DNA from: Isoptericola luteus
GTDB lineage: Bacteria; Actinomycetota; Actinomycetes; Actinomycetales; Cellulomonadaceae
Assembly (NCBI RefSeq): GCF_020297055.1
Contig: NZ_JAIXCQ010000018.1
Location: 1 to 45,495, forward strand
Length of the DNA stretch: 45,495 nt
Reading direction: 5' to 3'
The notes beneath the pieces were generated by a model. That model was not told the DNA's origin. It did no database searches and saw only the letters and a list, made by a program, of their open reading frames with translations. Positions 27,465-34,828 of the stretch are shown one piece after another. The position numbers were made by a program, and so were the translations under genes. Numbering within the stretch: position 1 is the stretch's first letter; each line of letters opens with the position of its first letter.

Positions 27465-27482
27465 TGCCGAGCCTACTCGGCA
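27465..27482 (-). promoter_or_regulatory. Palindrome over the candidate etfB -10
   Basis: TGCCGAG-CCTA-CTCGGCA is a perfect 7-bp inverted repeat. On the minus strand it contains TAGGCT (27475-27470), a plausible -10 about 60 nt before the etfB start. It could be a repressor site; no regulator is assigned. Confidence 0.4.
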
Positions 27483-27518
27483 GACCTCCCGGAGCGGGCG
27501 GTGCGGGGGGACGTCACA

Positions 27519-27548
27519 GGGTGCTGTCATCAACCTGCGACAGCACCC
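27519..27548. terminator. Candidate terminator downstream of hicB
   Basis: Perfect 10-bp arms GGGTGCTGTC (27519-27528) and GACAGCACCC (27539-27548) with a 10-nt loop, 78 nt beyond the hicB stop and upstream of the etf promoter. Confidence 0.5.
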
Positions 27549-27625
27549 GCCAAGCGGCGACGCTAGAGGCGAGCGGTGCTGGACAGCTACCTGCCCCGGC
27601 CGGCGACGGGGGGCTTCGTGCTGTC

Positions 27626-27952
27626 TCAGGCTGAGAGCTTGTGGCTGACGAGGCGGTTCATCGAGATACCCTGCTCGGCAGCCTCCTCGGCGAGCCGGCG
27701 GTGCACAGCCGGCGGGATCCGTACCTGAAACTTGCCAGAGTAGTTGCGCTCGGAGATCGGCTCGGGAACCTGCTCGCCGGTGGCCAGCAGGTCGTTGACC
27801 ACCTCGGCCGCCAGTAGCTGGATGCCAGCGAACGCGGCGCCCGGCTCGGACTCAAGCCACGAGAGAGACGGCAGCTCGAGGACGGTACCGACAAACTCCT
27901 GATCCTCGGCGGACCAAGCCACGCGGTAGCTGTAGTGCTCGGCGGCGTTCAC
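27626..27952 (-). CDS. hicB: HicB-family antitoxin
   Basis: 108 aa. The N-terminal half is a HicB-like degenerate RNase-H fold (YSYRVAWSAEDQEFVGTVLELPSLSW). The C-terminus is a ribbon-helix-helix DNA-binding segment (GKFQVRIPPAVHRRLAEEAAEQGISMNRLVSHKLS). HicB neutralises HicA and represses its own promoter. Its start overlaps the hicA stop (ATGA), giving the toxin-first order usual for hicAB. Confidence 0.85.
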   Translation of the reverse strand: MNAAEHYSYRVAWSAEDQEFVGTVLELPSLSWLESEPGAAFAGIQLLAAEVVNDLLATGEQVPEPISERNYSGKFQVRIPPAVHRRLAEEAAEQGISMNRLVSHKLSA

Positions 27953-28227
27953 TTCTCCTCCTCCTTGGAGTCGTCCTCATCTTGCATGGTCTTGAGCTTG
28001 TCGATCGCGTCGAGGACCTGGCGGACCTGGTAGGCCTTGGCCATGCCGCCCTTGTTCTGGATGTTGACCCGGGGATCGCCCCGCCACGGTGTGGCGTAGA
28101 CCTGGTGGGAGGTCCCGCTCTGTCTCGGATCGCCGAAGAACTCCACGCACACGCGCTCAAGCTCCTCGAACCGGATGGACGTCGGGCTCTGTCTCATCTT
28201 GGCGAGAGCCTTGTCCGTCTTCGTCAC
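27949..28227 (-). CDS. hicA: HicA-family mRNA interferase toxin
   Basis: 92 aa. Double-stranded-RNA-binding-like toxin that cleaves mRNA. The catalytic histidine lies in SGTSHQVYATPWRGDPRVNIQ, and the typical C-terminal AKAYQVRQVLDAIDKL is present. The N-terminus is longer than in short HicA proteins, as in the subfamily starting KALxxMRxxP. The start is GTG at 28227. Codon GC is lower than in the neighbours, which fits a mobile toxin-antitoxin pair. Confidence 0.82.
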   Translation of the reverse strand: MTKTDKALAKMRQSPTSIRFEELERVCVEFFGDPRQSGTSHQVYATPWRGDPRVNIQNKGGMAKAYQVRQVLDAIDKLKTMQDEDDSKEEEK

Positions 28228-28235
28228 GCGACGAC

Positions 28236-28253
28236 GGTACCAATAGTGGTACC
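28236..28253. promoter_or_regulatory. hicAB operator palindrome
   Basis: GGTACCA-ATAG-TGGTACC, perfect 7-bp arms with a 4-nt spacer, begins 9 nt upstream of the hicA start. It is where the RHH domain of HicB would be expected to bind for autorepression. Confidence 0.6.
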
Positions 28254-28821
28254 GCTTTCGTCAAGCGACCTGTCAGCAGTTGATAGGTGGCGTGCGAGAA
28301 ACCACGAAGCTCTGACTCGATCTCGAGCCGGGGCCGGGGGGTGGCGTCTCAGACGGCGGCCGCGACGAGCGTCTCGCGGTGACGCTGCATGACGCGTCCC
28401 ACAGTGGCAGCCGGGACGTCGAGACGGGCAGGCCCTCGCCCTCGACGAGACAGATCACCTCGGCGTCACGACCGGGCGAGACGAGGGAGAGACACCGGCG
28501 CGCGGGAGCGGTACACAGAGACTGGCGCTGCCGTTGGCGATGGAGTACTTCAGCGGCACCGTCACGACGGCGAGGAACCACCGGGCGGGTGTTCCTGACG
28601 AGGCAGGAGCCGCCTCCTTGGAGCTCGTGTGCGTCGTCCACGGATTCACAGCCCGAGCCACGGCTACTACTAGGGATAGATCTCTACAGGAAGACCCAAC
28701 CACGGGGGGAACCCTCGCCAGAGGCGATATGACCGCAGGTCCGAGCACCATTCCTCGGCCCCTGCACCGAGATCCCGCGCCGAGAGACCGCCGGGTCGCG
28801 ACGTGCCGACCCACCCGCCGT
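28254..28821. other. 568 bases without a convincing gene
   Basis: Open frames exist on both strands, but none has a family signature, a good ribosome site or coherent codon use. One minus-strand frame ending at 28349-28351 reads PARLDVPAATVGRVMQRH, which looks like the tail of a helix-turn-helix protein, without a visible start. Around 28650-28700 the DNA is more AT-rich. It lies between hicA and the 3' end of the sortase gene and may hold remnants of decayed genes. Confidence 0.5.
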
Positions 28822-29451
28822 TCAGGTGCGTGCCGCGTGCACCACCAGGTTCTCCGCCGCGGCCCCGGTGCGGCCGGCGCGCTGCAGGCAGGTGATGATT
28901 ACGAGCCGGTCGGCGCCGTCGGGCCGCGGCGCCCAGATGTCCGCCGACTGCGCGGCCTCCGCCTTGGTGCGGACGTCGGTGCCCTCGACGGTGTACCTGA
29001 CACCGTCGAGCACCAGCTCGTCACCCGCGCGCACGGTCGGTGCCGGGTCGGCCGCGGCGTGCTCGAAGAAGGCGTTCCCCGGCGCACGTCCGTCGCGCAC
29101 CGCGTGGAGCGCGACGACGCGCGGGCGCACGCCCTCCGCCGTCTCGCCGTCGGGATCGCGCACCACGAACGCCTCGGTGAGAGTGGGCGGGTTCAGGACG
29201 CCGCCCGCGACCGACATCTCGACCAGCGGCACGTCCAGACCCTGGCTCGGAGCCTGGAACCGGCCGCCGGTCGGGCGCACGTCGGCGGCGCGGGTGTCGG
29301 GCACGGCGTCCAGGGCGACCCGGTGACCGTCGAGATCGGTGAGGACGTGGCCCCCCGGGTCGTCCCCGAGCGCCAGCCAGGTGAGCCCGGCCGCGCCCGT
29401 GAGCGCCGCCACGACGACGGCGCCCAGGGCGTTGCGGACCCACCTGCTCAC
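28822..29451 (-). CDS. Sortase (class E/F-like) of the SipW locus
   Basis: 209 aa. An N-terminal membrane anchor (residues ~8-28) is followed by a sortase domain. The catalytic residues can be placed: H116 in VVALHAVRD, C188 in LVIITCLQRAG, and an Arg at 191 or 194. GDELVLDGVRYTVEGTDV is the usual strand before the active-site Cys. The size and the TDVR element fit class E/F enzymes of actinobacteria. It starts at GTG 29451, overlapping the upstream surface-protein stop (GTGA). It probably anchors or polymerises that protein, whose C-terminus carries LPTAG plus a hydrophobic stretch and an RARR tail. Confidence 0.82.
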   Translation of the reverse strand: MSRWVRNALGAVVVAALTGAAGLTWLALGDDPGGHVLTDLDGHRVALDAVPDTRAADVRPTGGRFQAPSQGLDVPLVEMSVAGGVLNPPTLTEAFVVRDPDGETAEGVRPRVVALHAVRDGRAPGNAFFEHAAADPAPTVRAGDELVLDGVRYTVEGTDVRTKAEAAQSADIWAPRPDGADRLVIITCLQRAGRTGAAAENLVVHAART

Positions 29452-30260
29452 ACGTCCTCCTGCTCGGCCGGGACGCCGCGTCGTGCCCTCGCCGCGGCGA
29501 GCGCGAGGGTCAGGAGTCCACCCGCGAGGAAGAGCATCCACCCGGCGGTGGGCAGCGCCGCACCGCCGGTAGCGGCGGTGCTCCCCGCCCAGAGGCCCCC
29601 GCCGGTCGCCTTGTCGGCGACCTCCGCGAGGCGCAGGTCGCTCGTGTCGGTCGACCCGACATCGGCCCCGCCGGTTCCGCCCGGTGTCGCGGGCGCGGGG
29701 TCCGCGTCCCGCGTCGCGGACGGGTCGCCCGTGATCCGCAGCTGGACGTCGAAGGCGAACTTGCGCTCGCCGACCTCGGCCCGGTTGCCGCTGGTGGCCT
29801 CGAGCGGGAACTCGTAGGTCAGCGGCACCTCAGTGGTGGCGCCCTGGGCGAGCTCGACCTCGTGGATCACGTGGTCATCGCCGGCCAGGTCGGCTGCGGC
29901 GACGTCGTTGATCCGCAGGTCGCGGAAGAACTCGTCGTCGGCATCGGCGCCGCCGAAGCTCGCGTTGACGATGCTCGCGGTGAGGTTCCCGGAGCTCGGG
30001 CCCTCGTTGGTGACGCGCACGGTCGTGGCCCCCGCGTCACCGGGGACGACCGTCACGATCCCCAGGGCGTCGCCCTGGACCGTGAGGTGGCCGGCCTCGC
30101 CCGTCCATCGCATCGCGACGTCGTGCACGGCAGGCTCCGGCACGACCGGCGTGGCCGGCGTGACGGCCGCCTGCGCCGTGACCGCCGTGGTGGCCATGAG
30201 CGCGAGCACCGTCGCGAGGACGGCGAAGCCGCCGGACCGTCGTGACCTGAGTTTCGACAT
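29448..30260 (-). CDS. Secreted surface protein with LPTAG-type sorting signal
   Basis: 270 aa. It has a normal signal peptide (residues ~1-32, cleavage near AQA-A), then one beta-rich domain (TVVPGDAGATTVRVTNEGPSSGNLTASIVNASF; VPLTYEFPLEATSGNR; FDVQLRITGD), a Thr/Gly/Asp linker, and a C-terminal cell-wall sorting arrangement: LPTAG at 236-240, a ~19-residue hydrophobic helix, and a basic RARRG tail. The domain resembles fibre or TasA-like subunits in style, but I do not recognise a named family. AAGGAG precedes the ATG. It lies 4 nt after the signal peptidase gene and overlaps the sortase gene. Confidence 0.75.
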   Translation of the reverse strand: MSKLRSRRSGGFAVLATVLALMATTAVTAQAAVTPATPVVPEPAVHDVAMRWTGEAGHLTVQGDALGIVTVVPGDAGATTVRVTNEGPSSGNLTASIVNASFGGADADDEFFRDLRINDVAAADLAGDDHVIHEVELAQGATTEVPLTYEFPLEATSGNRAEVGERKFAFDVQLRITGDPSATRDADPAPATPGGTGGADVGSTDTSDLRLAEVADKATGGGLWAGSTAATGGAALPTAGWMLFLAGGLLTLALAAARARRGVPAEQEDV

Positions 30261-30264
30261 GAGC

Positions 30265-30858
30265 TCACTCCTTCCTGTTCCGGTCCGGGAAGACGAGCGT
30301 CCCGACCCCGTAGACGAGCAGGCACACCGCGCCGATCGTGGCGGCCGCCGGGCCCCAGCCCGCGTTGGTCACGTGCCCCACGAGGGGCACCGAGTAGACG
30401 ACGCGGCCCATGACCTGGTCCGCGACGATCGGGTCGTCGTCCGCGCCGTTGGCGTCGCCACGGGTGACGAAGCCGGTGACGCCGTCGGCGTCCCACTGGA
30501 GGCCGACCACGCGGTGCGTGATCAGCGTCGGGTCGTCGGAGACGGGCTGGAAGGTCACCAAGTCGCCGGCCTGGATCTCGTTCGGGTCCACCCGCTGGGT
30601 CACCACCAGGTCACCCGGCGAGAAGACGGGCTCCATGGAGCCCGACAGCACCGTCAGCGGTACCGCGCCGAGGAGGCGCGGGACCACCGCGACGGCCGCC
30701 GCGAGAACGACCAGCGCCACCATGACGACGGTCAGCAGGATCGACCCGACCCGGGCGGCGACCGGTCGAGGCGACCCACCGGGGCCGGCGGCCCCGGCCT
30801 GCACCGGAGCCTGTACAGCAGCGTCGGCCGTGGCCGAGCGCTGGTCCAGGTCGGTCAT
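30265..30858 (-). CDS. sipW: Signal peptidase I, SipW / ER type
   Basis: 197 aa. Two membrane segments (residues ~36-60 and ~168-190) flank an extracellular catalytic domain. The nucleophile is S74 in VLSGSMEP. The general base is H115 in LITHRVV rather than a lysine, which defines the ER/SipW type. The GDANG motif is present. SipW enzymes process TasA-like proteins with alternate signal peptides. It is coupled to the upstream cargo gene (ATGA) and is probably dedicated to the two cargo proteins encoded just before it. Confidence 0.9.
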   Translation of the reverse strand: MTDLDQRSATADAAVQAPVQAGAAGPGGSPRPVAARVGSILLTVVMVALVVLAAAVAVVPRLLGAVPLTVLSGSMEPVFSPGDLVVTQRVDPNEIQAGDLVTFQPVSDDPTLITHRVVGLQWDADGVTGFVTRGDANGADDDPIVADQVMGRVVYSVPLVGHVTNAGWGPAAATIGAVCLLVYGVGTLVFPDRNRKE

Positions 30859-32045
30859 CGGTCCGCCTCCTCGTCGCCGTCCTGCGTGTCGTCGTCGGAC
30901 TCGTCGTCCGACGTCTCGTCGTCGGCCTCGTCGGCCTCGTCGTCCTCGTCGTCCTCGTGCCTGACGTCGTCAGGCTCCCTGGCCGACTCGGCTCCGTCCG
31001 GCTCCACCGATTCCGTGGACGCGGCGTCGGCAGCGTCGCCAGCGTCGCCGGCGGGCTGGGCGTCCTCGGCGGACTCGTCCACCGCCTGGGCCTCGCCCGG
31101 CTCGAGCTCGTCGGCCTGGATCACGTCCGGTTCGACCGGGTCCGCGGACGGGGCGTCGGTAGCCGGCTCCTCCAGCTCGGGCAGGGCTTCCGTCGTCTCA
31201 GGAGCCACTGCCAGCTCCTCTGGCTCGGCGGCCGCCACCGACTCCTCGGTCTCGACAGCCTCCGGTTCCCCTGGCTCAGGCGCGAGGGCCTCCTTCTGCG
31301 CCGTCTCGGACTCTCCAGGAACAGGCTGGGCGACTCGTTCCTGAGAACCCCCCGTGATGACGCCATGGTCAACAGGCCCTCGGAGATCGCGGGCTGGACT
31401 GCTGACATTCTTGAGTCTGTGCACGATCTCGGGCACGGGAATAATCTCGTCGGCGACCTTAACAAAGCTCTGGCCGTCGAAGACACTGAGATCGACACTC
31501 AAGCCAGTTGCAGAACTGGCTTCATTGCCTCCCCCGCTCCTCCACACCTGAAGCAGGATCGTGACATCCTGGGCCGAATTCACCTCGGCGCGCAGATCGC
31601 CAAACTGGCCACCGACGTTCGCTCCCGGCGTGGTCAAGACAATGTCGAATGGCCGTCCAGGGTTGTCAGCGGAATGCCCAACTTCCTTCCCTTCCTGCAA
31701 GATCACAAACCGATACTCCGGCTTGTGAAAGCTCAGAAATTCCCATGTGTCAGGGAGCGCCATCGTCAAACGATAGGCGCCCTGCTCGGCAATGCCAGAG
31801 ACTTGAATTCCGGCGATTGACTTCGGGGAATCGTTCGTCTCGAGCGCAACCTTGTCTGGATACTCTTCGGGCGTAATCGTCGGAGCCTTGACTTCCGACC
31901 CGTCGACGATGGCGGGCAGCGCGAGCGATACATGGCTGCGCCAGAGCGCCGACGTCGTTCCGGCACCACTGGCGAGCGCTCCGGCCGACAGGACGCCGAC
32001 CAGTGCTGCTGCGGTGGTCAAGACCACCGCGCGGTTGCGAATCAT
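30855..32045 (-). CDS. SipW-dependent secreted protein with long acidic tail
   Basis: 396 aa. The N-terminus has the alternate signal-peptide pattern ending in an ALW motif (TTSALWRSHVSLALP, residues ~31-45). Residues ~45-215 form a globular beta-type domain of no named family. Residues ~235-396 are a Glu/Asp/Pro/Ala-rich tail ending in nearly pure acidic sequence. There is no sorting motif or C-terminal helix, so it is likely released or held non-covalently. DNA at about 31,320-31,890, coding for the globular domain, is much lower in GC than the tail or neighbours, suggesting a mosaic or transferred gene. AGAGGAGG precedes the ATG. Confidence 0.7.
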   Translation of the reverse strand: MIRNRAVVLTTAAALVGVLSAGALASGAGTTSALWRSHVSLALPAIVDGSEVKAPTITPEEYPDKVALETNDSPKSIAGIQVSGIAEQGAYRLTMALPDTWEFLSFHKPEYRFVILQEGKEVGHSADNPGRPFDIVLTTPGANVGGQFGDLRAEVNSAQDVTILLQVWRSGGGNEASSATGLSVDLSVFDGQSFVKVADEIIPVPEIVHRLKNVSSPARDLRGPVDHGVITGGSQERVAQPVPGESETAQKEALAPEPGEPEAVETEESVAAAEPEELAVAPETTEALPELEEPATDAPSADPVEPDVIQADELEPGEAQAVDESAEDAQPAGDAGDAADAASTESVEPDGAESAREPDDVRHEDDEDDEADEADDETSDDESDDDTQDGDEEADR

Positions 32046-32075
32046 GTCGCCTCCTCTGGCGGGGTGGGCCCGCCC

Positions 32076-32094
32076 CGGCTCCAGGAAGGAGCCG
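32076..32094. terminator. Hairpin between the two SipW cargo genes
   Basis: CGGCTCC-AGGAA-GGAGCCG, a perfect 7-bp stem, lies 24 nt after the first cargo gene's stop and 31 nt before the next start. It could act as a partial terminator, giving more of the first (major) product. Confidence 0.4.
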
Positions 32095-32118
32095 AGGCCG
32101 GGCTGGTGCTACGAGGTG

Positions 32119-32676
32119 TCACGGCTGGGGCAGCGTGCTGCTGGGCGGGAGCTGCTCGAGGGTGACCTCGATGTTCTCGGGACCCCAGGTCTTGTCCTTG
32201 ACGGTGGAGTACTTGCCGCCCTGCTCCTTCAGCTGGATCGCCACGCTGAGCTCCGTCGTGCCGGCGCTCGCCGGCGTGAGGGTGGTGGTCCAGCCCTCGC
32301 CGGCCTCGCTGCCCTCGAGCTGCCACGTGATGTCCAGCCATTCCGGCTGCGTCTCGACGCCGTCGATCTTGAGCTCTGCGGCGAGGTGGTCACCCGAGAG
32401 CTCCGTCGAGATCGTGGTCTTGCCCTTCAGCACAACGCCCGGAACGATCTTGAGAGTGGAGTCGCCACTGCCGTCCAGCTCCTTCCCTTCCCCCACCTCG
32501 TCGATCTCGTACTCGGCCCACGACATGGCGGGCGCCGTGAGCTTGAACGCACCCCCCGTGATCTCCGCCCTACCGATGGTGTCCGTGTCGGACCACAGCG
32601 CGAACGTCCCGGCCGTGCCGAGCAGCAGCGCTCCACCGGCGACACCGGCAACGAGTCCCTTGGTCTTCTTCTGCAT
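32119..32676 (-). CDS. Alternate-type (SipW) signal peptide protein, probable major surface subunit
   Basis: 185 aa. The first ~35 residues (KGLVAGVAGGALLLGTAGTFALWSDT) match the alternate signal peptide class processed by SipW (TIGR04089-like, from memory). The mature part is beta-rich with repeated strand patterns (ITGGAFKLTAPAMSW; STLKIVPGVVLKGKTTIS; WTTTLTPASAGTTELSVAIQL), as in TasA/camelysin-like fibre subunits. A strong GGAGGAAGCACC precedes the ATG. It is first in the secretion set, 205 nt after the kinase gene, and likely has its own promoter. Confidence 0.85.
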   Translation of the reverse strand: MQKKTKGLVAGVAGGALLLGTAGTFALWSDTDTIGRAEITGGAFKLTAPAMSWAEYEIDEVGEGKELDGSGDSTLKIVPGVVLKGKTTISTELSGDHLAAELKIDGVETQPEWLDITWQLEGSEAGEGWTTTLTPASAGTTELSVAIQLKEQGGKYSTVKDKTWGPENIEVTLEQLPPSSTLPQP

Positions 32677-32881
32677 GGTGCTTCCTCCGAGTCGACATGT
32701 CGCCGCGGCCCATTGGGGACCGGCGTCGCGGACGGCGCTTCTTCCTCCGCCCTCGCCCTGCTGGGCTTGCAAGAAGAATGGCGGGACGCACTCGCACGAA
32801 GACGGCAGTCATGAGGAAAACCCGCACCGACGTCCGTGGTAGTACGGAGGAGCTCGTCGAGCTCTCGCCGACGAGCCGGGT

Positions 32882-34078
32882 TCAGCGTCCCGGGCGCTCC
32901 GCCGCGGTGGTGTCGTCCTCGCGCCGGAAGGGCAGCGTGAAGTGCAGCCGGCCGCCGCCGTCGGGGTTGGTGGTGAGCTCCAGGACCCCGCCGCGGGACT
33001 CGATGCGGGAGCGGTGCCGGTCGAGGCCGTGGAACGGGGGGACCGGGTCCGGGGGCCCCGAGCCGTCGTCGTCGACCGTGACCTCGAAGACCCAGTGCCC
33101 CGGCTCCTGGCGTGGGTAGGCCTCCGCGCGCACGCGGACGGTGCGGGCGCGGCCGTGCTTGAGCGCGTTCGTCACCGCCTCTTCGACGGCGTACACGGCG
33201 ACGAGCCGTTCGGTCACCGGGAGGAGCGCGGCGCCCTGCTCCTCGGCGATGTGGCTGCGATACCTAGGTCCGAGCTCGACGGACGTCGCGATCGCCGTCG
33301 GCAGCCGGCGCAGCATGAGCTCGATCGCCTCGACGGCGCCGATCTCCAGGCCCGCGGGGAAGACGGCGTGGCTGAGCGAACGGACCTCGGTCTCGCGGAT
33401 CTCCTCGAGCGCCTCCGCCCAGCGGCGGATGTCCGCCACGGCGGTCTCCTTGCCCCCGGCGAGGTCGGACGCGAGCTGGTCGAGAGCGGCCGTGACGGTC
33501 ACGAGCCGGTACTGCAGCGTGCCGTGGAGCTGGTCGGACACCATGCGGCGGATCCGCATCTCCTCGGCCTGCAGCTCGTCGACGGCCCGTGCGGCGCGCG
33601 CCTGCTCCTCCTCGCGCCGCTGCGCCTCGGTGCGGGCCTGCTCGATGAGGTCGGCGGCGAACAGCGCCATGCCCACGGCGACGGTGCCGGCGGCGATGCC
33701 GACCGCCCCCTCGACGAGGCCGAACAGGGAGCCCGTCGGCGTCGTCCCGATCTCCAGGAGCGCCAGCACCCGCGGCATCGCGAACACCGCCGACAGCCCG
33801 GCGACGGCGACGAGCCGGGTCGCCCACGGGCGACTCAGCACCCGGAACAGGAACGCCCCGCCGATGACGAGGAGGCCGAAGACCAGGTTCACCGAGGTCA
33901 GCACCAGCCCCTCGGACACGACGCCGAGAACTCCTTTCGACTTCGCCGCCGCCAGCCCGCCCCACCCCATCCACTGCGACAGGTCGAGGATCGCGAACAG
34001 CGCCACGTTCACGACCGCGAAGACGAGCGCCACCCGGCCGTGCTCGGAGAGGCTGCGCTGCCGGATCAGCCCCGCCAC
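32882..34078 (-). CDS. Membrane sensor histidine kinase
   Basis: 398 aa. About four membrane helices (residues ~14-33, ~55-78, ~88-107, ~121-143), then a coiled coil and a dimerisation helix with H185 (MVSDQLHGTLQ), then a GHKL ATPase domain with N-box EEAVTNALKHG and G-box DDDGSGPP. There is no obvious extracellular sensor domain, so it may sense membrane or cell-wall state. It starts at GTG 34078, overlapping the response regulator stop by 13 nt, and forms a pair with it. Control of the downstream SipW/sortase genes is inferred from position. Confidence 0.85.
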   Translation of the reverse strand: MAGLIRQRSLSEHGRVALVFAVVNVALFAILDLSQWMGWGGLAAAKSKGVLGVVSEGLVLTSVNLVFGLLVIGGAFLFRVLSRPWATRLVAVAGLSAVFAMPRVLALLEIGTTPTGSLFGLVEGAVGIAAGTVAVGMALFAADLIEQARTEAQRREEEQARAARAVDELQAEEMRIRRMVSDQLHGTLQYRLVTVTAALDQLASDLAGGKETAVADIRRWAEALEEIRETEVRSLSHAVFPAGLEIGAVEAIELMLRRLPTAIATSVELGPRYRSHIAEEQGAALLPVTERLVAVYAVEEAVTNALKHGRARTVRVRAEAYPRQEPGHWVFEVTVDDDGSGPPDPVPPFHGLDRHRSRIESRGGVLELTTNPDGGGRLHFTLPFRREDDTTAAERPGR

Positions 34079-34731
34079 GAGCGCCCCGTCTGCTCGAGGA
34101 ACGCCAGCACCGCCGCGACGCGTCGGTTGTGGCCCTCGCCGCCGATCTGCAGGCGCTGGTAGATGGACTGGAGGTGGCTCTCCACCGACCGCTCGTTGAT
34201 GCCGAGCTGCTCGGCCACGCCCTGGTTCGACCAGCCCTCCGCGACGAGGCGCAGCACCTGGAACTGCGCGGGCGTCAGCTCGGCGACAGCCGTCTTCGCC
34301 CGCGGCGACGACCGCTGCACGAGGTACGGGTCGAGCACGACCTGGCCCTGCGCCGTCGCGGTGACGGCGCGCACCAGCACGTCGCGCGCGAAGCTCGACC
34401 GTTTGGACAGGTAGCTCCACGGCTTGCTGACCTGGTCCTGCACCGTGGTGAACAGGCCCATGACGTCCTCACTGGAGAGCAGCATGATCGCGAGCCGCGG
34501 GTCCGCGCGCTGGAGCTGCAGCCCGAGCGAGACGCCGTTGCCGTCGGGCAGGTTCACGTCGAGCACGGCCACGTCGCAGCTCCCCGGCGTGATCACCAGC
34601 CGGGCCTCCTGGACGCCGGGCACCGAGTGCACGACGCGGACGCCCTCGTGCGACGCCAACGCCTCCTCGAGCATGCCGCGCATCAGCGCCTCGTCCTCGA
34701 CGATGCTCACGCGCGTCACGGTGGTGACCAC
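34066..34731 (-). CDS. LuxR-type response regulator
   Basis: About 221 aa. Receiver domain with acidic pair E12-D13, phosphoacceptor D58 in VAVLDVNLPDG, and a later Ser/Lys switch region. A C-terminal LuxR helix-turn-helix (LTPAQFQVLRLVAEGWSNQGVAEQLGINERSVESHLQSIYQRL) binds DNA. Start choice: TAGCAT at 34739-34744 lies 7 nt from the GTG at 34731, which fits leaderless transcription. An ATG at 34749 would add six residues. Likely regulator of the SipW/sortase genes downstream. Confidence 0.85.
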   Translation of the reverse strand: MVTTVTRVSIVEDEALMRGMLEEALASHEGVRVVHSVPGVQEARLVITPGSCDVAVLDVNLPDGNGVSLGLQLQRADPRLAIMLLSSEDVMGLFTTVQDQVSKPWSYLSKRSSFARDVLVRAVTATAQGQVVLDPYLVQRSSPRAKTAVAELTPAQFQVLRLVAEGWSNQGVAEQLGINERSVESHLQSIYQRLQIGGEGHNRRVAAVLAFLEQTGRSWRG

Positions 34732-34828
34732 ACGCACGATGCTACGCATCGGTCACGATTCGGCACGGCGAGGCCGCCGCGCCGCGGGGCCGCGCGCGGC
34801 CTTGAGGTTCCACGGGCACCATGGCCCC

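Follow-up and report, generated by a model that had tools for sequence, protein, structure and literature searches.

A candidate cassette for an anchored TasA-like surface fibre in Isoptericola luteus, combining SipW-type export, an asparagine-type sortase and a two-component pair

Introduction

The operon tapA-sipW-tasA of Bacillus subtilis consists of three genes under the control of SinR and, to our knowledge, contains neither a sortase nor a sorting signal nor a two-component pair. It joins a dedicated signal peptidase of the endoplasmic reticulum (ER) type to two exported proteins (PMC9674648), as does the locus treated here, a cassette of seven genes in Isoptericola luteus (28822-34731, entirely on the minus strand). 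It lies in a stretch of 45,495 nucleotides (GCF_020297055.1, NZ_JAIXCQ010000018.1, positions 1-45,495; hereafter the window). An earlier note on this DNA had listed, in this order and on one strand, a response regulator, a membrane kinase, two proteins with alternate SipW-type signals, an ER-type signal peptidase, a surface protein and a sortase, and all seven were found where it placed them. The locus is read here as a laterally acquired cassette for a surface fibre that is TasA-like and covalently anchored at its base, a reading to which we give about even chances.

Judged by gene content and not by sequence, the nearest described system is sipW-bsaABCRSD of Clostridium perfringens, an operon that includes a two-component pair and is adjoined by srtB (PMC7395162). 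The passages of that report which concern the operon state that sipW transcription requires BsaRS, with BsaR binding at the sipW promoter, that srtB is dispensable for polymer and pellicle, that no LPXTG-like motif is predicted in BsaA, and that a predicted terminator with read-through follows bsaA (PMC7395162). As far as these passages go, both systems share a SipW-type peptidase, a small SipW-dependent protein that forms a polymer there and is a candidate subunit here, more secreted proteins, a two-component pair and an adjoining sortase gene, as well as a hairpin or terminator region behind the gene of the (here presumed) major subunit. However, the C. perfringens sortase gene is located upstream of sipW, whereas the block in the window conserves a predicted wall-anchored protein together with a sortase carrying Asn at the usual Arg position. 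The suggestion in the earlier note that SipW, sortase and signalling pair form an undescribed combination was therefore too strong in general; it stands for actinobacteria in so far as the matches listed in open-licence PubMed Central papers included no work on a SipW/TIGR04089 system from these bacteria.

The TasA/CalY/CapP filaments of Bacillus cereus are described as sortase-independent (PMC13082335), which illustrates how far SipW/TasA export and sortase anchoring are usually kept apart; they are matrix filaments with several TasA/CalY-type subunits and resemble in this the fibre that is only proposed here. If our reading is true, the cassette would unite two surface routes of Gram-positive bacteria usually treated separately. 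Closer to the host, TIGR04089 loci of Georgenia, Oceanitalea, Frigoribacterium, Ruania and Cellulomonas uda (L033-L039) possess counterparts of the 185-amino-acid (aa) exported protein of the window, SipW, further SipC proteins and a relative of its 270-aa protein (LP270-like), the latter with a TG sorting signal wherever the C terminus is complete. They differ in gene order, and in the stretches that were fetched profiles found no relative of the window's kinase or of its sortase; the sole regulator match was a 923-aa LuxR-type ATPase (L037).

Results

Insertion site

The seven genes sit within an inserted segment of ~7.3 kb (27480-34772, no strand assigned) between etfB and treX, together with a hicB-like gene pair. 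This corrects the earlier account, which omitted the hicB-like gene as well as the hairpin-bearing gap of 205 bp behind the kinase gene and the sorting motif preferred below. EtfA and TreX are 8249 bp apart in the window. Among 17 genomes of the same genus, 16 could be resolved (G006 is divided over contigs here): in 12 the distance is ~1.0 kb, leaving room for etfB alone, and in four it is 1.8-3.8 kb. In G010 the flanks of the window (to 27479 and from 34773) are separated by only 34 bases (L273). The G+C content of the insert is 0.704 vs 0.746 on both sides, lower than in any equal-sized stretch leftward (minimum 0.713, 200-bp steps), and a sortase of the cassette type was detected in none of the 17 same-genus genomes. 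Lateral acquisition of the cassette forms part of the evenly balanced reading given above, within which a single event for all nine insert genes is a candidate only.

The hicB-like gene (PF05534, 59.4 bits) and its 92-aa neighbour occupy 27626-28227 inside the insert, with a G+C content of 0.62-0.66; the neighbour has no family match and is hicA-like by position only. Spacers exceeding etfB alone were also seen at this junction in G003, G004, G013 and G014, so that it may be an insertion hot spot. BLASTN of these four spacers against the window insert aligned the flanks only, and their cargo, read by eye, includes an esterase-like gene in G014 and a DUF389-like gene in G013.

Conservation of the gene set

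The sortase was sought in 221 genomes of the family, 17 of which match, the host's own among them; besides the window this gives 22 places. Twenty of these were fetched (G060 and G187 were left out; the stretch of G026 around 3368236 gave no sortase frame). SipW is a neighbour of the sortase in seven of the 20 places (L165-L168, L171, L173, L174) and lies 2.5 kb away on the opposite strand in L172; profiles did not find it in L169, L170 and L175-L183, some of which are short contigs. Kinase and regulator adjoin the sortase in five places (L164-L168), and an LP270-like gene is near it in six (L164-L168, L174). The complete set, with counterparts of the 185-aa, 396-aa and 270-aa proteins, SipW, sortase, kinase and regulator, is present in different order in four close genomes of genus g41 (L165-L168), so that the synteny predicted in the earlier note is not broken in all relatives. 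L164 (G177) displays the 270-like gene, sortase, kinase and regulator before the contig ends. L174 (G235) reproduces the order of the window, 185-like, second SipC, SipW, 270-like and sortase, with no such kinase-regulator pair beside it. In the wider order 21/396 genomes match the sortase, own included (best other 5.9e-22). In a tree of 62 SipW genes the window's is one of nine that form a supported set (98/96); of these nine, eight adjoin this type of sortase, whereas a ninth sortase-adjacent SipW (L043) is placed elsewhere.

Signal peptidase and exported proteins

The signal peptidase (30265-30858, minus strand) scores 98.5 bits against TIGR02228 (cut-off 51.85) and has the Ser and His that are conserved in 61 of the 62 aligned sequences, its own included; Ser-His in place of a Ser-Lys dyad is given as a mark of the ER type (PMC10269814). 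With 78.5 bits it remains below the cut-off of 190 for the Bacillus SipW equivalog NF046067. Judging by these scores it works like SipW, yet is not the Bacillus equivalog.

The first exported protein, of 185 aa (32119-32676, minus strand), is the candidate major subunit. It reaches 80.8 bits against TIGR04089 (cut-off 60) and 26.3 against TIGR04088 (cut-off 19), and its FA-LW signal, read from the letters, has an aromatic P2' residue. Since TIGR04089 occurs in 79/221 family genomes, own included, this part alone is commonplace. The second protein, of 396 aa (30855-32045, minus strand), bears an SA-LW signal, likewise read by its letters, and an acidic tail of 168 residues (63 D+E, 5 K+R). It showed no meaningful family match, none to TIGR04088 at E <= 1, and its profile matched just two relatives, across their first 73-82 residues; equivalents are present in L165-L168 and L174. 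Both proteins thus share A-L-W after a hydrophobic signal, and the aromatic position is kept in second exported proteins of relatives (TA-LW in L165-L168, MA-YW in L174, AA-W in L042). Of the two alternate signals of the earlier note, that of the 185-aa protein is borne out by TIGR04089 and TIGR04088, and that of the 396-aa protein is supported by the A-L-W pattern and the equivalents in relatives. An aromatic P2' is named as one feature that makes the TasA signal of B. subtilis a poor substrate for ordinary signal peptidase (PMC10269814), which suggests that both signals should resist that enzyme.

Comparison with TasA and pilin folds, as proposed earlier, gave no significant match for the 185-aa protein (predicted local distance difference test score of the model 55; TasA fibre at rank 14, E 0.06). 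Donor-strand pilins head its weak matches, among which are also archaeal bundling pili and the TasA fibre. TasA/camelysin PF12389 matched no cassette protein at E <= 1 and nothing in the whole genome of the host, whereas the B. subtilis control matched.

In a second SipW cluster of the host, on contig 1 (L041:7221-10450), the exported protein is 610 aa long and contains DUF285/PARCEL repeats; SipW cargo is thus not always fibre-like.

Anchored protein and sortase

The predicted wall-anchored protein of 270 aa (29448-30260, minus strand) has, by eye, an ordinary signal peptide, followed by a beta domain (residues 43-181), a C-terminal membrane segment and a basic tail. No family matched above cut-off; TasA was the best structural match of the domain, a weak one. 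The surface protein with sorting signal claimed earlier was upheld in its signal architecture, not in the motif: T231 and G232 are invariant in 9/9 aligned LP270-like rows (out of 27 profile matches), which makes TAATG (residues 228-232; 29565-29579, minus strand) a better candidate than LPTAG (residues 236-240). Sortase-linked LP270-like proteins show LAQTGG, VSRTGG, ASQTGG and similar motifs, and a TGG ending with membrane segment and basic tail is found in a neighbour of 11/22 sortases. Giant proteins with a terminal TGG sorting signal adjoin the sortases of L169, L170 and L172.

The sortase itself (28822-29451, minus strand) is divergent, with an N-terminal membrane segment, His116, Cys188 and Asn201. 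It scores 16.3 bits against PF04203, under the gathering score of 26.6; 9/22 members of its group match that family at E <= 0.01, this sub-threshold match included (best 1.5e-10). To class F sortases (NF033748) the group is linked by matches of 7/22 members (best 1.6e-14); the window protein itself gives no match at E <= 0.01 and has Asn in the position of the sortase Arg. His116 and Cys188 are invariant in 22/22 aligned members, and in 22/22 Asn201 stands where sortases have the Arg of strand beta8. The His-Cys-Arg triad of a standard sortase is absent, and from its residues the protein is not claimed as one. By comparison, beta8 Arg was present in 31/31 PF04203 sortases read (18 by pattern, 13 by eye), namely the other one of the host genome and those of 30 loci. 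These are best-scoring sortases and for the most part represent a single canonical type; the L043 pair, two PF04203 matches that are weaker, falls into the Asn group. The Arg at the beta8 position is reported to bind the sorting signal in SrtE1 of Streptomyces (PMC5148588). No study of an Asn-type sortase was among the matches listed in open-licence PubMed Central papers, and the group offers a direct test of the need for the catalytic Arg.

Hairpins and intergenic gaps

A hairpin at 32068-32103 (minus strand) follows the 185-aa gene and recurs at the same place in relatives; it is a candidate read-through terminator or processing site, unlisted by the terminator scan. The 73-bp gap holding it has a fold z of -2.71, and 1/200 shuffles were equally stable. 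In 10/12 chosen gaps after first subunit genes z was <= -2.7 (-0.97 and -1.66 in the other two), and L166 and L167 exhibit a perfect 18-bp stem. In the fetched loci, a scripted test yielded z <= -2 in 17/40 first genes vs 23/204 other gene ends (LP270-type 8/24, sortases 4/22, SipW 3/62); a rank test that treated related sequences as independent gave p 1.9e-5. A simple rule served to pick out the first genes, and a single row (z -2.2), for which the 396-aa gene was the best label, is in neither group. The hairpin may be a device for an excess of the first subunit.

A further hairpin (32850-32877, minus strand) lies directly after the kinase stop in the 205-bp gap before the first subunit gene and is a candidate end of the kinase transcript. 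Its fold z is -2.12 (32787-32881) or -1.19 (32800-32900); it has no T run and is unlisted by the terminator scan. Among 16 control stretches, of which 32787-32881 is one, eleven others ranged from -0.74 to +2.13. The controls upstream of the g41 first subunit genes (L165:12195-12304, L166:4900-5013, L167:4825-4938, L168:12033-12146) contain a strong hairpin (z -3.4 to -4.4), possibly leader regulation.

Kinase-regulator pair

The response regulator is of the NarL/LuxR type (34066-34731, minus strand, alternative start 34749; PF00072 48.2 bits, PF00196 46.3 bits, both above their cut-offs). The membrane histidine kinase (32882-34102, minus strand, start uncertain; PF02518 29.7 bits vs cut-off 26.4) has four membrane segments predicted by hydropathy and, as drawn, shares 37 bp with the regulator gene. 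With a receiver and a helix-turn-helix in the one and a HATPase in the other, the two are, by their domains, a two-component system.

SipW was present in 0/20 fetched loci of the closest kinase relatives (~39-55% identical; some contigs end near the kinase, and the 20 leave out three places of similar rank); the dependence on the regulator that the earlier note proposed to test finds no support here. In a kinase tree of 34 rows, in which one linked gene (L082/L135) was entered twice, the SipW-linked kinases of the window, L164-L168 and L068/L069 fall in three places. They need 3 changes, at least 2 of them forced by starred branches, and none of 200 bootstrap trees (0%) unites them in a single clade. 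The repeated association of SipW with this kinase family, the window's own pair being ungrouped, supports a functional link; the same tree equally suggests that the link in the window is recent or a swap. The different kinases that accompany the cassette make it a natural case for testing how regulators are swapped.

A divergent kinase and regulator lie beside a SipW gene in L068 and L069, where small exported proteins have a different signal of the S-A-A-Q-L type. In L056 (6814-9744) and L057 (7266-9422), from two other families of the order, a further response-regulator gene lies next to SipC-SipW pairs.

Discussion

A covalently anchored SipW-type assembly, as the earlier note had suggested, remains the best reading of the cassette. 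The Ser-His signal peptidase would cleave the two proteins with alternate signals, of which the 185-aa protein would be the major subunit, in excess because the hairpin behind its gene presumably damps the genes that follow, and the 396-aa protein with its acidic tail an accessory or tip/nucleator subunit. The 270-aa protein, with its weakly TasA-like domain, would leave through its ordinary signal peptide, and the dedicated Asn-type sortase would link it at TAATG to the cell wall, so that fibre or coat would be held there. The kinase-regulator pair probably controls the promoter of the first subunit, which is the weakest step.

In another reading, SipW would export two monomeric surface or secreted proteins and the sortase anchor a third, giving a coat or adhesin set whose genes travel together without forming a polymer; the 185-aa protein without significant fold match, the 396-aa profile confined to the first 73-82 residues of two relatives, and the DUF285/PARCEL cargo of the second SipW cluster all agree with this. 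However, the anchored domain has its best match in TasA, donor-strand pilins, archaeal bundling pili and the TasA fibre are found among the weak matches of the 185-aa protein, and a hairpin follows the first subunit gene, and we regard a non-fibrous product as rather unlikely. Anchoring would fail if the sortase-like protein were a hydrolase, a binder or dead, with the 270-aa protein remaining in the membrane. Asn in all 22 group members against Arg in all 31 best-scoring PF04203 sortases, a score under the PF04203 cut-off and the missing class F match point that way. His and Cys would be needless in a dead enzyme, however, and are invariant, and neighbours retain the TG(G) motif along with a membrane segment and a basic tail; loss of transpeptidation appears very unlikely.

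More weight, if somewhat less than even chances, is due to the idea that the signalling pair is a passenger which entered the same site separately, the SipW genes having their own promoter in the 205-bp gap. The three changes in the kinase tree, the 20 SipW-free loci of close kinase relatives, the hairpin after the kinase stop and the longer spacers at the same site in four other genomes are in keeping with it, as is G235, where the five-gene module has no pair of this kind adjoining. On the other side, the operon itself contains a pair of the kinase family in four close genomes, such a pair adjoins the sortase in a fifth, and divergently placed pairs near SipW (L068, L069) and a response regulator adjoining SipC-SipW (L056, L057) amount to a recurrent pairing which argues for a function; in C. 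perfringens, BsaRS is reported to control PsipW (PMC7395162).

Beyond the anchored fibre proposed for the window, it is tentatively suggested that the family possesses a mobile cassette for a TasA-type fibre, the TasA-fold base of which is held on peptidoglycan by an Asn-for-Arg sortase, its sensor pair being exchanged in evolution. Many SipW and sortase matches were also noted in G026 (genus g10; L042-L046), with nine SipW-query matches and eleven PF04203 matches, two of these sortases lying within 2 kb near SipW genes.

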